A DNA stretch of 38,482 nt, from the NCBI GenBank assembly GCA_022800815.1, contig JAAWRC010000032.1, positions 1-38,482 of the forward strand, given 5' to 3'. Source of the stretch: Lachnospiraceae bacterium. Lineage in GTDB: Bacteria > Bacillota > Clostridia > Lachnospirales > Lachnospiraceae. Below the pieces are notes generated by a model. That model searched no databases, was not told the origin of the DNA, and saw only the letters and a program-made list of their open reading frames with translations. The position numbers and the translations under genes are program-made. Positions within the stretch are counted from its first letter, which is position 1. Each line of letters opens with the position of its first letter. Below, one piece after another: positions 16,520 to 34,430 of this stretch.

Positions 16520-16718
16520 CGAAAGAATTGAATAACCAATGTAGAGGTTGCGTTTTTCATCAGTATTCCGGTTGATATGTACAGGCATAGGGGAAACCGG
16601 GGGAAAGGGGAAAGCGCCGAAGGAACGAATAGCCTGGATAGGAGTTCCTGGGCATATGGTGAACAATCATATGACTGTCATCCGACAGGATGGAGCGCTA
16701 CTTTATGAATGATTCGAT
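16520..16718 (+). ncRNA. Lysine riboswitch (L-box)
   Basis: Conserved L-box words occur in order: GTAGAGGTTGCG (16541-16552), CAGTATTCCGG, GGGAAAGGGGAAAGCGCCGAAGG around 16601-16623, TCCTGGGCATATGG (16646-16659), CATATGACTGTCATCCGACAG, and the closing GGAGCGCTACTTT (16692-16704). The outer helix is formed by about 16520-16534 with 16703-16718. Lysine binding would favour the terminator at 16756 and shut off dapA-dapB. Ends are approximate. Confidence 0.92.
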
Positions 16719-32229: not shown

Positions 32230-32258
32230 TTGACACGGCGGGCAAATGATGATAAGAT
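32230..32258 (+). promoter_or_regulatory. Promoter of the cysteine leader-cysK-cysE operon
   Basis: TTGACA (32230-32235), 17 nt, TAAGAT (32253-32258). Transcription would begin near 32265, about 23 nt before the leader start codon. Confidence 0.7.
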
Positions 32259-32287
32259 GCATTTATAAAAGCGAGAGGAGAACGGAC

Positions 32288-32386
32288 ATGAGAAAGACTT
32301 GTTGTAAAAACCTGTGTTGTCGCCGGATGCTGCTTTACCGGATATGCTGTGTGACAGGATGTTGCAACAGGTCTTGTTGTATTTGA
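32288..32386 (+). CDS. Cys-rich leader peptide of the cysK operon
   Basis: A 32-codon ORF starts at ATG 32288, 7 nt after GAGAGGAG, and stops at TGA 32384. It codes for ten Cys in five adjacent pairs (residues 5-6, 10-11, 20-21, 25-26, 30-31); the start reads MRKTCCKNLCCRRMLL. Eight of the ten are TGT codons. Other residues are mostly Arg, Lys, Asn, Leu. It lies alone between a strong promoter and a terminator 27 nt after its stop, followed by cysK. This is the layout of an amino-acid-specific leader peptide: ribosomes short of Cys-tRNA should stall in it. A free Cys-rich metal-binding peptide is the alternative, but the RNA pairings argue for a leader. Confidence 0.82.
   Translation: MRKTCCKNLCCRRMLLYRICCVTGCCNRSCCI
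32294..32375 (+). promoter_or_regulatory. Helix that would lock the antiterminator segment (anti-antiterminator)
   Basis: AAGACTTGTTG (32294-32304), containing the first Cys-Cys codons, pairs with CAACAGGTCTT (32365-32375) over 11 positions with one G-U. It encloses 32332-32344 in its loop and crosses the antiterminator pairing, so the two exclude each other as simple secondary structures. A ribosome stalled at codons 5-6 (32300-32305) would open it. Confidence 0.6.
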
Positions 32387-32423
32387 ATATTTTGTCCATG
32401 GAATTGTTGTGTATCCGGAAAGC
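32332..32423 (+). promoter_or_regulatory. Antiterminator pairing of the cysteine leader
   Basis: GCTTTACCGGATA (32332-32344, codons 15-19 of the leader) can pair with TATCCGGAAAGC (32412-32423) with only one bulged A. The second segment is the 5' arm of the terminator, so this helix and the terminator are alternatives. Confidence 0.68.
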
Positions 32424-32448
32424 TTGCGGTATGGCTTTCCGGATTTTT
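32413..32448 (+). terminator. Attenuator terminator before cysK
   Basis: ATCCGGAAAGC (32413-32423) pairs perfectly over 11 bp with GCTTTCCGGAT (32434-32444) around a 10-nt loop; five T follow (32444-32448). It lies after the leader ORF and before the cysK ribosome binding site. Confidence 0.85.
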
Positions 32449-32494
32449 GCGTTGTTGTGAGAAAATGATCCGAAAAAGAAAGAGGGAAATGAAA

Positions 32495-33427
32495 ATGGCA
32501 GGTTATTATAAGGGAACTTTGGGACTGATCGGGAATACTCCGCTGGTCGAGATCGTAAATATGGAAAGGGAGCTGGGGCTTGGGGCGACGGTGCTGGTGA
32601 AACTGGAATATTTGAATCCGGCCGGGAGCGTGAAGGACCGGGTGGCAAAGGCGATGGTCGAGGATGCGGAGAGACGGGGATTGTTAAAGGAGGGTTCCGT
32701 GATCATCGAGCCAACCTCGGGAAACACCGGGATCGGCCTGGCGGCCATTGCGGCGGCGAAGGGCTACCGGATCATCCTGACCATGCCGGAGACCATGAGC
32801 GTGGAGAGGAGGAACATCCTGAAGGCCTATGGGGCGGAGATCGTATTGACGGAAGGCGCGAAAGGGATGAGGGGGGCCATTGAGAAGACGGAAAGGCTGG
32901 CGGAGGAGATTCCGGACGCCTTCCTTCCCGGACAGTTTGCAAATCCGGCGAACCCTGCGGCCCACAGGGCTTCGACGGGACCGGAGATCTGGAGGGACAC
33001 GGACGGAAAGGTTGATATCTTCATTGCGGGGGTTGGCACAGGCGGCACCCTCACCGGGGTTGGAGGATATTTGAAAGGGCAGAATCCGAATGTTCGCATC
33101 GTGGCCCTGGAACCCGCAGCCTCTCCGATTCTCTCGGAAGGAAGGGCGGGGGCTCACGGGATCCAGGGAATCGGTGCCGGGTTCGTCCCGGAGACTCTGG
33201 ACACTTCGGTGTACGACGAGATCTTTCTGGCGGGGACGGAAGAAGCCATTGCGGCGGCAAAGCTTCTGGCCAGAAGAGAGGGAATTCTGGTGGGAATTTC
33301 GGCGGGAGCTGTGCTCCACGGGGCCATCCAGCTGGCGAGGCGGCCGGAAAATGCGGGAAAGATAATTGTCGCCCTGCTTCCGGATTCGGGAGACCGGTAT
33401 TATTCGACCCCGCTGTTCACGGAGTAA
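32495..33427 (+). CDS. cysK: Cysteine synthase (O-acetylserine sulfhydrylase)
   Basis: It makes cysteine from O-acetylserine and sulfide with PLP. The 310-residue protein shows the N-terminal [11 protein letters not shown], the PLP lysine K47 in NPAGSVKDR, substrate loop [19 protein letters not shown], the phosphate loop GTGGTLTG and the C-terminal [12 protein letters not shown]. Start is the ATG at 32495 with AGAGGG 8 nt upstream. The reading frame is open back to the leader stop codon. cysE follows after 10 nt, giving the classical pair of serine acetyltransferase and sulfhydrylase under the leader attenuator. Confidence 0.95.
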
Positions 33428-33437
33428 GGAGGATTAT

Positions 33438-34430
33438 ATGGGAAAGATCATTGAAAAAGAGATTGAGGGCATTGCGGCGGCCATCCTGGAGGATTACCGG
33501 ATTGAGCGGGCCGTTGACCGGATCGACATGTTTAAACAGCCGGATAAGCAGGAGATCGTGAAGATCATAAGCGGACTTTTGCAGATCGTGTATCCGGGCT
33601 ACTATTTTGACAAGACCTACAAGATCTATGGCATCGGACACAAGATGTCGGTGAAGGTGGAGGACGTGATCTACCATCTGAACAAGCAGATCAGGCTGGC
33701 CCTGCAGTTTGCGGCCGGGCGGGACGGGACGGGAGAAGCCGTGCGGATGGATGCCGCAGCGGAATCGGAACACAATGCGGAAGACGAGTCCCAAAAGATC
33801 GCCGTGGCGTTTTTTAAGCGCATCCCGGCGGTGCGGGCGGTATTGGAGACGGACGTGGAGGCGGCGTTTCAGGGGGATCCGGCGGCGAAAAGCCGGGAGG
33901 AAATCATCATGGCCTACCCGGGGCTCTATGCGATCACCGTGTACCGCCTGGCCCACGAGCTGTTTCTATTAAAGGTGCCTCTGATCCCCAGGATCATGAC
34001 GGAGCATGCCCACGGTATCACGGGGATCGACATCCATCCGGGAGCCACCATCGGGAATTATTTCTGCATCGACCACGGCACCGGCATCGTGGTCGGGGAG
34101 ACGGCCATCATCGGCGATCACGTGAAGATCTACCAGGGAGTGACCATCGGTGCGCTGTCCACTAGGAACGTGGAGAAGATGAGGAATGCGAGACGGCATC
34201 CGACCATCGAGGACAATGTCACCATTTATGCGGGGGCCTCAATCCTGGGGGGCGAGACCGTCATCGGGGAGAATTCCGTGATCGGCGGCAGCGTGTTCAT
34301 CACTTCGTCCATTCCGGCAGACACGAAGGTGAACATGAAGAATCCGGAATTGAAGTTCCGGCCCAATTCCGGGAATGAATTGAAGGTCCAGGAGTTTTCT
34401 CAGAGCGAGGAGTGGTATTATACGATATGA
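33438..34430 (+). CDS. cysE: Serine O-acetyltransferase (EpsC-type)
   Basis: It acetylates serine from acetyl-CoA to O-acetylserine, the substrate of the CysK encoded just upstream. The 330 residues comprise a long helical N-terminal domain (about 1-185) and a left-handed beta-helix of hexapeptide repeats. Catalytic-site residues are seen in ITGIDIHPGATIGNYF and the CIDHGTGIVVGETA segment (H213), followed by IYQGVTIGALS and the IEDNVTIYAGASILGG turns. The length fits the longer EpsC-type enzymes rather than the 270-residue enterobacterial CysE. TAAGGAGG precedes the ATG. No terminator is clear after it. Confidence 0.93.
   Translation: MGKIIEKEIEGIAAAILEDYRIERAVDRIDMFKQPDKQEIVKIISGLLQIVYPGYYFDKTYKIYGIGHKMSVKVEDVIYHLNKQIRLALQFAAGRDGTGEAVRMDAAAESEHNAEDESQKIAVAFFKRIPAVRAVLETDVEAAFQGDPAAKSREEIIMAYPGLYAITVYRLAHELFLLKVPLIPRIMTEHAHGITGIDIHPGATIGNYFCIDHGTGIVVGETAIIGDHVKIYQGVTIGALSTRNVEKMRNARRHPTIEDNVTIYAGASILGGETVIGENSVIGGSVFITSSIPADTKVNMKNPELKFRPNSGNELKVQEFSQSEEWYYTI

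Follow-up and report, generated by a model that had tools for sequence, protein, structure and literature searches.

Ribosome-mediated attenuators of the trp and his type in enterobacteria combine a short ORF containing control codons with a protector (1:2), an antiterminator (2:3) and a terminator helix (3:4). For Firmicutes, the control of cysteine genes is usually told as the work of CymR and T-boxes. Polycysteine leader ORFs upstream of cys operons were reportedly described for mycobacteria by Canestrari in 2020, and an ilv leader attenuator is said to exist in Listeria. According to the available parts of the respective publications, the Cys codons of actinobacterial cys leaders lie near the stop codon, with Mycobacterium regions lacking a conserved terminator hairpin (PMC1262725); the uORFC-8-2 motif before cysS in Rhodobacterales comprises tandem Cys codons and a terminator-like stem with a U run (PMC8632094); a His leader of hisS/hisZ in bacilli replaces a T-box (PMC2965389); and Staphylococcus aureus has a BCAA leader (PMC5794164). 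Among the matches listed from the open-licence literature on leaders and attenuation, in the parts available, none concerned a Cys leader in Clostridia or Lachnospiraceae; the Firmicutes leaders of bacilli, S. aureus and Listeria are also amino acid leader peptides, but for other amino acids.

The locus described here is part of the window, i. e. the whole 38,482-nt stretch of DNA that was analysed. In front of cysK and a cysE-like gene it contains a Cys-rich leader peptide ORF which, judging from sequence and folding models, very probably belongs to a ribosome-mediated transcription attenuator that reads charged tRNA-Cys. The resemblance to the trp and his attenuators lies in the short control-codon ORF and in the 1:2, 2:3 and 3:4 helices; the differences lie in the likely read-out of cysteine, the Lachnospiraceae-type genome and an antiterminator 5' arm that is encoded within the leader and keeps a constant spacing to the core Cys codons. 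Unlike the mycobacterial sORF, the leader is not leaderless, as it has a Shine-Dalgarno (SD) sequence and 29 nt between the predicted -10 box and the ATG. It shares runs of Cys codons before a cys operon with the mycobacterial and actinobacterial leaders, which are thought to be cysteine-responsive, but combines an SD-led ORF and early Cys codons with an intrinsic terminator and an antiterminator (compared with the accessible part of PMC1262725). Tandem Cys codons in a uORF and a terminator-like stem with a U run are also found in uORFC-8-2, which differs in phylum, gene (cysS), the usual position of its Cys codons (14-15) and its two stems, and for which the available part of PMC8632094 makes no mention of a CCRM-like core. 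An earlier note on this DNA had spoken of a different, little-described system. No Rfam family matches, and no report from Clostridia was found in the partly available literature. In its predicted workings the device resembles classical trp/his-type ribosome-mediated attenuation; it is neither a T-box nor a leaderless mycobacterial sORF.

The cysteine leader upstream of cysK and cysE

The locus comprises the following features, in which the helices are predicted pairings.

32230..32258, + strand: putative sigma-70-type promoter, TTGACA-17-TAAGAT, TG before the -10
32276..32280, + strand: Shine-Dalgarno AGGAG of the leader ORF, 7 nt 5' of ATG 32288
32288..32386, + strand: Cys leader ORF, 32 codons plus stop (from sequence and homologues)
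32294..32307, + strand: protector helix, 5' strand, codons 3-7 (partner 32362-32375)
32318..32341, + strand: class core, codons 11-18, Cys Arg Arg Met Leu Leu Tyr Arg (from pattern match and leader comparison)
32332..32347, + strand: antiterminator outer helix, 5' strand (partner 32409-32423)
32348..32362, + strand: antiterminator middle helix, 5' strand (partner 32387-32400)
32362..32375, + strand: protector helix, 3' strand (partner 32294-32307)
32363..32369, + strand: antiterminator inner helix, 5' strand (partner 32375-32381)
32375..32381, + strand: antiterminator inner helix, 3' strand (partner 32363-32369)
32387..32400, + strand: antiterminator middle helix, 3' strand, past the stop codon (partner 32348-32362)
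32409..32423, + strand: antiterminator outer helix, 3' strand, overlapping the terminator 5' arm
32413..32448, + strand: intrinsic terminator hairpin (32413-32444) and U-tract
32489..33427, + strand: cysK, cysteine synthase A (TIGR01139, 432.9 bits, cut-off 350.95)
33438..34430, + strand: cysE-like serine O-acetyltransferase (best NCBIfam model TIGR01172, 160.9 bits, below the cut-off of 210.65)

The promoter, SD, 32-codon ORF with five Cys-Cys pairs and terminator before cysK-cysE, all of which the earlier note had pointed out, were found in the sequence as described. The ORF at 32288-32386 reads MRKTCCKNLCCRRMLLYRICCVTGCCNRSCCI and contains ten Cys as five pairs, while the 3' end of the class core within it (32318..32341) forms the CCGG of the antiterminator arm. 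The pairs follow a period of five residues (5, 10, 20, 25, 30); residues 15-16 are Leu-Leu, and the periodicity looks as if it stemmed from a 15-nt repeat. In the terminator, described before as a perfect 11-bp hairpin, 11 perfect pairs are indeed present and are joined by one wobble to give 12 pairs around a loop of 8, followed by a T run. Translation of cysK may start at ATG 32489 or ATG 32495, as read by eye. A scan of the whole window against Rfam returned a lysine riboswitch (RF00168, 107.8 bits, 16534-16708) as the sole gathering-level match; it is located upstream of ORFs that read as dapA- and dapB-like.

Conservation was analysed in 11 genomes of the genus, own genome (G000) included, five of which gave a cysK match at E 1e-60 or better. 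A homologous leader is present in 4/4 genomes, again including G000, whose cysK shows at least 78% identity, and in these cysK-ortholog genomes the Cys-pair ORF, the helices and the terminator have been retained together, in line with the expectation of the earlier note. The fifth genome carries two more distant cysK copies (65 and 61% identity), both without the leader. A profile of the four peptides recovered the leader once in each of the four genomes and gave no further confident match in the genus (remaining hits E 0.54-0.55). Among the four congeners, 22/32 residues of the peptide are invariant, and the promoter (TTGACA in 4/4, with a -10 of TAAGAT or TACGAT), the SD (AGGAGAA in 4/4), the post-stop segment and the terminator, situated between leader and first gene in 4/4, are likewise kept.

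The synonymous sites of the leader are frozen relative to those of cysK. Between G000 and G005, synonymous changes affect 1/29 conserved codons in the leader and 117/259 in cysK (Fisher 3.5e-6), with a dN of 0.054 and a dS of 0.053 for the leader and a dS of 1.21 for cysK. The corresponding counts are 3/22 and 143/246 for G000 and G006 (6.4e-5), and 5/24 and 126/253 for G005 and G009 (0.009). This pattern at the sequence level points to an RNA constraint on the leader besides the constraint on the peptide.

A fifth homologue emerged from a peptide-profile search of 397 family genomes, in which, besides the own leader, one strong match was obtained in another genus (G326:C12, E 3e-10). Five others at E 0.002-0.009 (G352, G375, G202, G221 and G055) were dropped as weak, and a hit in G465 because it is inside a coding gene. 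The G326:C12 leader (L204) reads MTKNCCKNLCCCRMLIYRIYCVIRCSSRLCCA and has kept promoter, SD and antiterminator; a shorter hairpin, read by eye, precedes TTTTTT, and the full-length fold prefers the antiterminator. Its early Cys pairs are intact, and pairs 20-21 and 25-26 are each down to one Cys. Instead of cysK, the operon 3' of this leader encodes two permeases, an ATPase and a binding protein, whose best PDB matches are 1xt8 (8e-72) and 2yjp (1.4e-67), followed by the next at 8.6e-36. We take 1xt8 and 2yjp to be cysteine-binding proteins; the PDB table names say only amino acid. For the ATPase, the best NCBIfam model is the L-cystine TcyN model, below its cut-off. The operon thus presumably encodes a cysteine-type ABC transporter, with the ligand assigned by resemblance to 1xt8/2yjp. 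The own cysK of G326 (L129) has no Cys leader within 350 bases upstream. About 6 kb from the leader-transporter locus, an ORF at 295-1215 of L210 reads as TnpB-like.

Competing helices and the position of the ribosome

The 241-nt leader folds with a z of -2.82, and none of 200 shuffles was as stable (0/200). In a transcript that ends at the terminator loop, the fold of the four congeners is one long antiterminator, in which codons 15-28 pair with codons 30-32, the post-stop segment and the terminator 5' arm. Its outer, middle and inner helices contribute 15, 14 and 7 pairs, i. e. 36; the pairing of 32332-32344 with 32412-32423 proposed in the earlier note exists, but represents only the outer helix of a structure with three times as many pairs. 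In shorter transcripts that lack the terminator 5' arm, the protector forms between codons 3-7 and about codons 25-30; if codons 3-7 are kept unpaired in the calculation, transcripts of 90 to 126 nt from the ATG lose 4 to 14 kcal/mol. Here too, the helix first seen between 32294-32304 and 32365-32375 is real in the folds but longer, joining 32294-32307 with 32362-32375 through 14 pairs. For the full transcript, protector plus terminator is the best fold in the four congeners. Of the elements of an attenuator, the locus has an SD-led short Cys-codon ORF upstream of an operon, an intrinsic terminator, and an antiterminator that is conserved and mutually exclusive with this terminator.

Aligning the five homologues, 99.2% of antiterminator cells are paired, compared with 32-52% when the strands are slid by 1-3 columns; for the protector, the values are 88.6% and 34-54%. 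The close homologues provide one double change in the antiterminator and one in the protector, without excess over column shuffles in these five sequences (79 and 307 of 500 as high), because they are few and close. Compensatory changes, which had been named beforehand as a check on the helices, are therefore thin at this distance but do appear in the antiterminator helix of the wider class (see below).

As a null, leaders were synonymously recoded with the codon usage of five window genes, which was applied to all homologues. When the ribosome stalls at codon 5, the terminator arm is sequestered more strongly than in recoded leaders in 5/5 homologues (p 0.007-0.040), with p 0.007-0.079 against recoded leaders whose UTR was shuffled too. 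The protector is seen in the folds of all five homologues; against the recoded null it reaches p 0.066 in G000, 0.053 in G006 and 0.033 in G009, and is not above it in G005 (p 0.62) or G326 (0.44). In terms of overall stability, the stalled RNA exceeds the null in G000 (0.007) and, with shuffled UTR, in G009 (0.033); it does not do so in the remaining homologues of the five, and the difference is clear only in G000.

When a ribosome was masked in the folds, positions at codons 5-12 favoured the antiterminator most. The 2:3 pairing was scored in five homologues for the pre-arm state, i. e. a transcript that ends before the terminator 5' arm. It amounts to 0-0.01 in four homologues and 0.05 in the fifth if no ribosome is present, to 0.42-0.96 in 5/5 for a stall at codons 5, 6, 10 or 11, to a mixed 0.12-0.96 at codons 12-15, to 0-0.25 at codons 20-26, to 0-0.33 at codons 30-31 and to 0-0.01 at the stop codon. 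In transcripts of four homologues that include the arm, its upstream pairing reaches 0.98-1.00 when the ribosome stalls at codons 1-12, falls to 0.30-0.90 for codons 13-25 and returns to 0.88-1.00 for codons 26-33; stalls towards the 3' end of the ORF are thus ambiguous, as the arm is again paired with the leader there. For the window leader, the values at codons 5-11 hold at footprints of 10-18 nt past the A site, and, depending on the footprint, the ribosome begins to cover the arm at a codon between 12 and 16.

In a transcript with the arm but no ribosome, the equilibrium lies on the side of the antiterminator (0.98-1.00, four tested). An equilibrium-only model for termination without translation was rejected, since naked RNA with the arm prefers the antiterminator, and kinetic trapping by the protector would be needed for the same reason. 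The earlier proposal that a lack of translation leads to termination accordingly fits the pre-arm state (2:3 pairing of 0-0.05) but not the equilibrium after synthesis of the arm. The stall site placed by the earlier note at codons 5-6 is kept in five homologues and yields the antiterminator in the model, but the site conserved in the class is probably codons 10-11(-12). Overall, its three-way attenuator read by ribosomes on Cys codons gains support from conservation and, within the limits of a model, from the masked folds.

The switch could operate as follows. With ample cysteine, the ribosome would pass the early Cys codons, and the antiterminator arm would be held off either by the ribosome or by the protector that joins codons 3-7 to about codons 25-30, so that the terminator could form and transcription would stop near 32448. 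With scarce Cys-tRNA, a ribosome waiting at the early Cys codons (5-6 or 10-11) would block the protector and leave the antiterminator arm, from about codon 16, uncovered. The long antiterminator could then capture the terminator 5' arm, and cysK-cysE would be transcribed. Translation of the ORF, Cys-specific stalling and the operation of the switch in vivo are what we infer from these folds.

A wider class of cysteine leaders in Lachnospiraceae

On the basis of sequence comparison, the window leader belongs, as a divergent branch, to a wider class that precedes cysteine and sulfur genes and has (C)CCRM[LF]xxR as its core. Typical class cores resemble MCCCRMLFSR, with CCRRMLLYR as the window counterpart; only the short core is common to all members, and the rest of the peptide varies. 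When 397 family genomes were searched with a covariance model built from the five homologues, 170 of them had matches at E 0.1 or less. Besides G000 and G326:C12, ten of these matches (L230-L239) were read, and G326:C15 scored 1.1e-4. Eight of the ten are Cys leaders, and L236, which is the same site as L255, is also one; L238 did not read as a Cys leader.

The strict pattern TGYYGYCGNATGNTNNNNNNCCGG, searched in 387 family genomes, produced 29 matches in 27 genomes, and the reversed pattern 2. Leader ORFs account for 19 of the 29, in 19 genera of 334 sampled, and 17 of these 19 have an SD-led start called by script; the other 10 showed no leader on inspection and outnumber the 2 matches obtained with the reversed pattern. 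What follows the leader is a cysteine- or sulfur-type gene in 18/19 and a GST-like gene, 0.7 kb away, in one. These first genes resemble O-acetylhomoserine sulfhydrylase in 10 cases (9 over the TIGR01326 cut-off), encode a binding protein or ABC permease in 4, are cysK in 2, and are MetQ-like and cystathionine lyase/synthase-like in one case each, the latter two below cut-offs. For one class binding protein, 2yjp and 1xt8 are the two PDB sequences at E 1e-40 or better; the ligands of the others are assigned tentatively by resemblance. The covariance model alone contributed three further leaders, in front of binding proteins (L230, L239) and a GST-like gene (L234). In L230, L254 and L263, the gene that follows the leader is a fusion, encoding a family-3 solute-binding domain together with an NlpA/MetQ lipoprotein domain in a single reading frame. 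The GST-like genes after Cys leaders in L240 and L234 (Pfam GST_C_2) would tie a thiol-transfer enzyme to cysteine supply.

With a slightly looser core pattern, 80 named contigs were scanned. In eight of them the core lies within a short ORF preceded by an SD, and in all eight the arm has an exact 9-nt complement further downstream; cysK follows at 0.25 kb in one and at 1.5-1.7 kb in seven, and in 7/7 of the latter contigs the intervening gene is an O-acetylhomoserine sulfhydrylase (metY) over the TIGR01326 cut-off. L045 is a ninth locus with the core. Arg next to the core Cys is encoded by CGA in 18/19 leader matches and by CGG in the window, and CTG (Leu) takes the place of this codon in L041, L045, L052 and L064. 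CGA is a hard-to-decode codon, and it may add to the ribosome pause at this position.

A complementary view starts from cysK. Among 195 cysK loci, scanned up to 350 bases upstream, 15 have an SD-led Cys-rich ORF, compared with 0 on the reverse strand and a mean of 0.75 (at most 3) in 20 shuffles. The Cys-rich ORFs of L038, L051 and L141 were set aside since their DNA reads as part of an upstream coding gene, as were L146 and L177, which resemble what we take to be FeoB-associated Cys-rich membrane proteins and not leaders; the ORF of L012, among the 15, is doubtful as a leader. The leaders of L041 and L045, absent from this strict scan, were found by a separate search. Most cysK genes of this sample are thus not directly preceded by a Cys leader; in some cases the leader stands in front of metY instead. 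Complementarity between leader and terminator is higher in 11 cysK loci with a Cys leader, four close homologues among them, than in 27 with a terminator and no Cys leader (p 8.8e-5). L066, L070, L107 and L114 carry Cys-rich leader ORFs and a terminator before cysK without the CCRM core; they fold less clearly, L066 showing no antiterminator, and are perhaps independent inventions or diverged members.

The geometry of the class was compared in 27 elements. In 23, the leader arm forms a run of at least 9 pairs with a terminator 5' arm located 65-92 nt further downstream; the runs of L244, L246 and L256 are shorter, and L265 is without a convincing partner. After L265, L246 and L244 had been dropped, 24 rows remained for covariation. 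Beside CCGG, the pair types are GC 23 and AU 1 at +2; AU 8, GC 15 and GU 1 at +4; CG 16, UA 2 and UG 6 at +5; and AU 17, GC 3, UA 2 and unpaired 2 at +6. The partners were chosen to pair, which biases the paired percentage, and the evidence resides in the joint change of pair types; read in this way, the aligned sequences show compensatory changes in the antiterminator helix across the class in four columns. Own partners score 26.65 and swapped ones 22.93, a difference reached by 0/5000 permutations (p 2e-4), with the own partner top-scoring in only 4/26 rows. In masked folds of 26 elements with a footprint of 16 nt, arm-leader pairing is 0.96 and 0.95 when the ribosome waits at the first and second core codon, drops to 0.62 at the next codon and to 0.47 and 0.41 beyond it, and is 0.86 at the stop codon and 0.93 without a ribosome. 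In this model, the core Cys codons would be the last positions that spare the arm at a footprint of 16 nt; a shorter footprint shifts this edge by at least one codon, as calculated for the window leader only. In 33 elements, the helix that joins the Cys core to the post-arm segment and corresponds to the protector is also stronger than in mononucleotide shuffles (median z -0.94, p 1.9e-4), with z below -1 in 15/33 and above 1 in 3/33.

Alternative readings and implications

Sequence and computation establish the leader ORF, its possible helices, their conservation and the operon context, and other explanations have to be measured against these. Conceivably, the ORF makes a functional Cys-rich peptide for metal or redox binding and the terminator merely sets the level of cysK, as the five-residue period of the Cys pairs and the 22/32 residues invariant in four congeners might suggest. 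We regard this as improbable, given that the synonymous sites are as frozen as the others (dN 0.054, dS 0.053), which argues for RNA constraint, that other class members share the short core only, that two of the Cys pairs are reduced to a single Cys in L204, and that a Pfam search of the leader peptide returned no hit. A similarly small chance is given to a general translation sensor, in which any slow-down on the leader, and not cysteine in particular, leads to read-through. The masked folds are compatible with such a sensor, as they depend on ribosome position alone; against it stand the placement of the Cys codons where a stall matters and the cysteine- or sulfur-type genes that follow 18/19 leader matches, the 19th being GST-like.

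Slightly less likely still is the control of cysK by another known device, i. e. a T-box, a riboswitch or a CymR-type Rrf2 repressor. The own genome does possess ten T-box matches, four of them over the cut-off, and two Rrf2 proteins over the cut-off. The window leader itself has no Rfam match at the gathering threshold and, up to E 1, only a chance snoRNA match; nor was any Rfam match obtained at the homologue leaders scanned or in 20 class loci. A T-box at the cysK leader was rejected, as the RF00230 covariance model has no match there. An additional repressor may act at the cysK promoter.

With the ribosome-mediated attenuator as the preferred reading of the locus, the class as a whole probably, though with less certainty than the single leader, represents a leader-peptide cysteine regulon in place of T-boxes or a repressor. 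It would form one undescribed class, defined by (C)CCRM[LF]xxR, in which the position of the Cys codons lets a waiting ribosome just leave the CCGG arm free. In many Lachnospiraceae genera, members of this class would have been shuffled to sites in front of cysK, metY-cysK, cysteine-type ABC transporters, MetQ and further sulfur genes. The core provides a short motif for finding the regulon elsewhere and predicts the position of the ribosome stall. Cysteine is a sulfur source in the gut and a precursor of hydrogen sulfide, and a Cys-specific class with fixed codon-arm spacing would give some Lachnospiraceae another way of sensing it.
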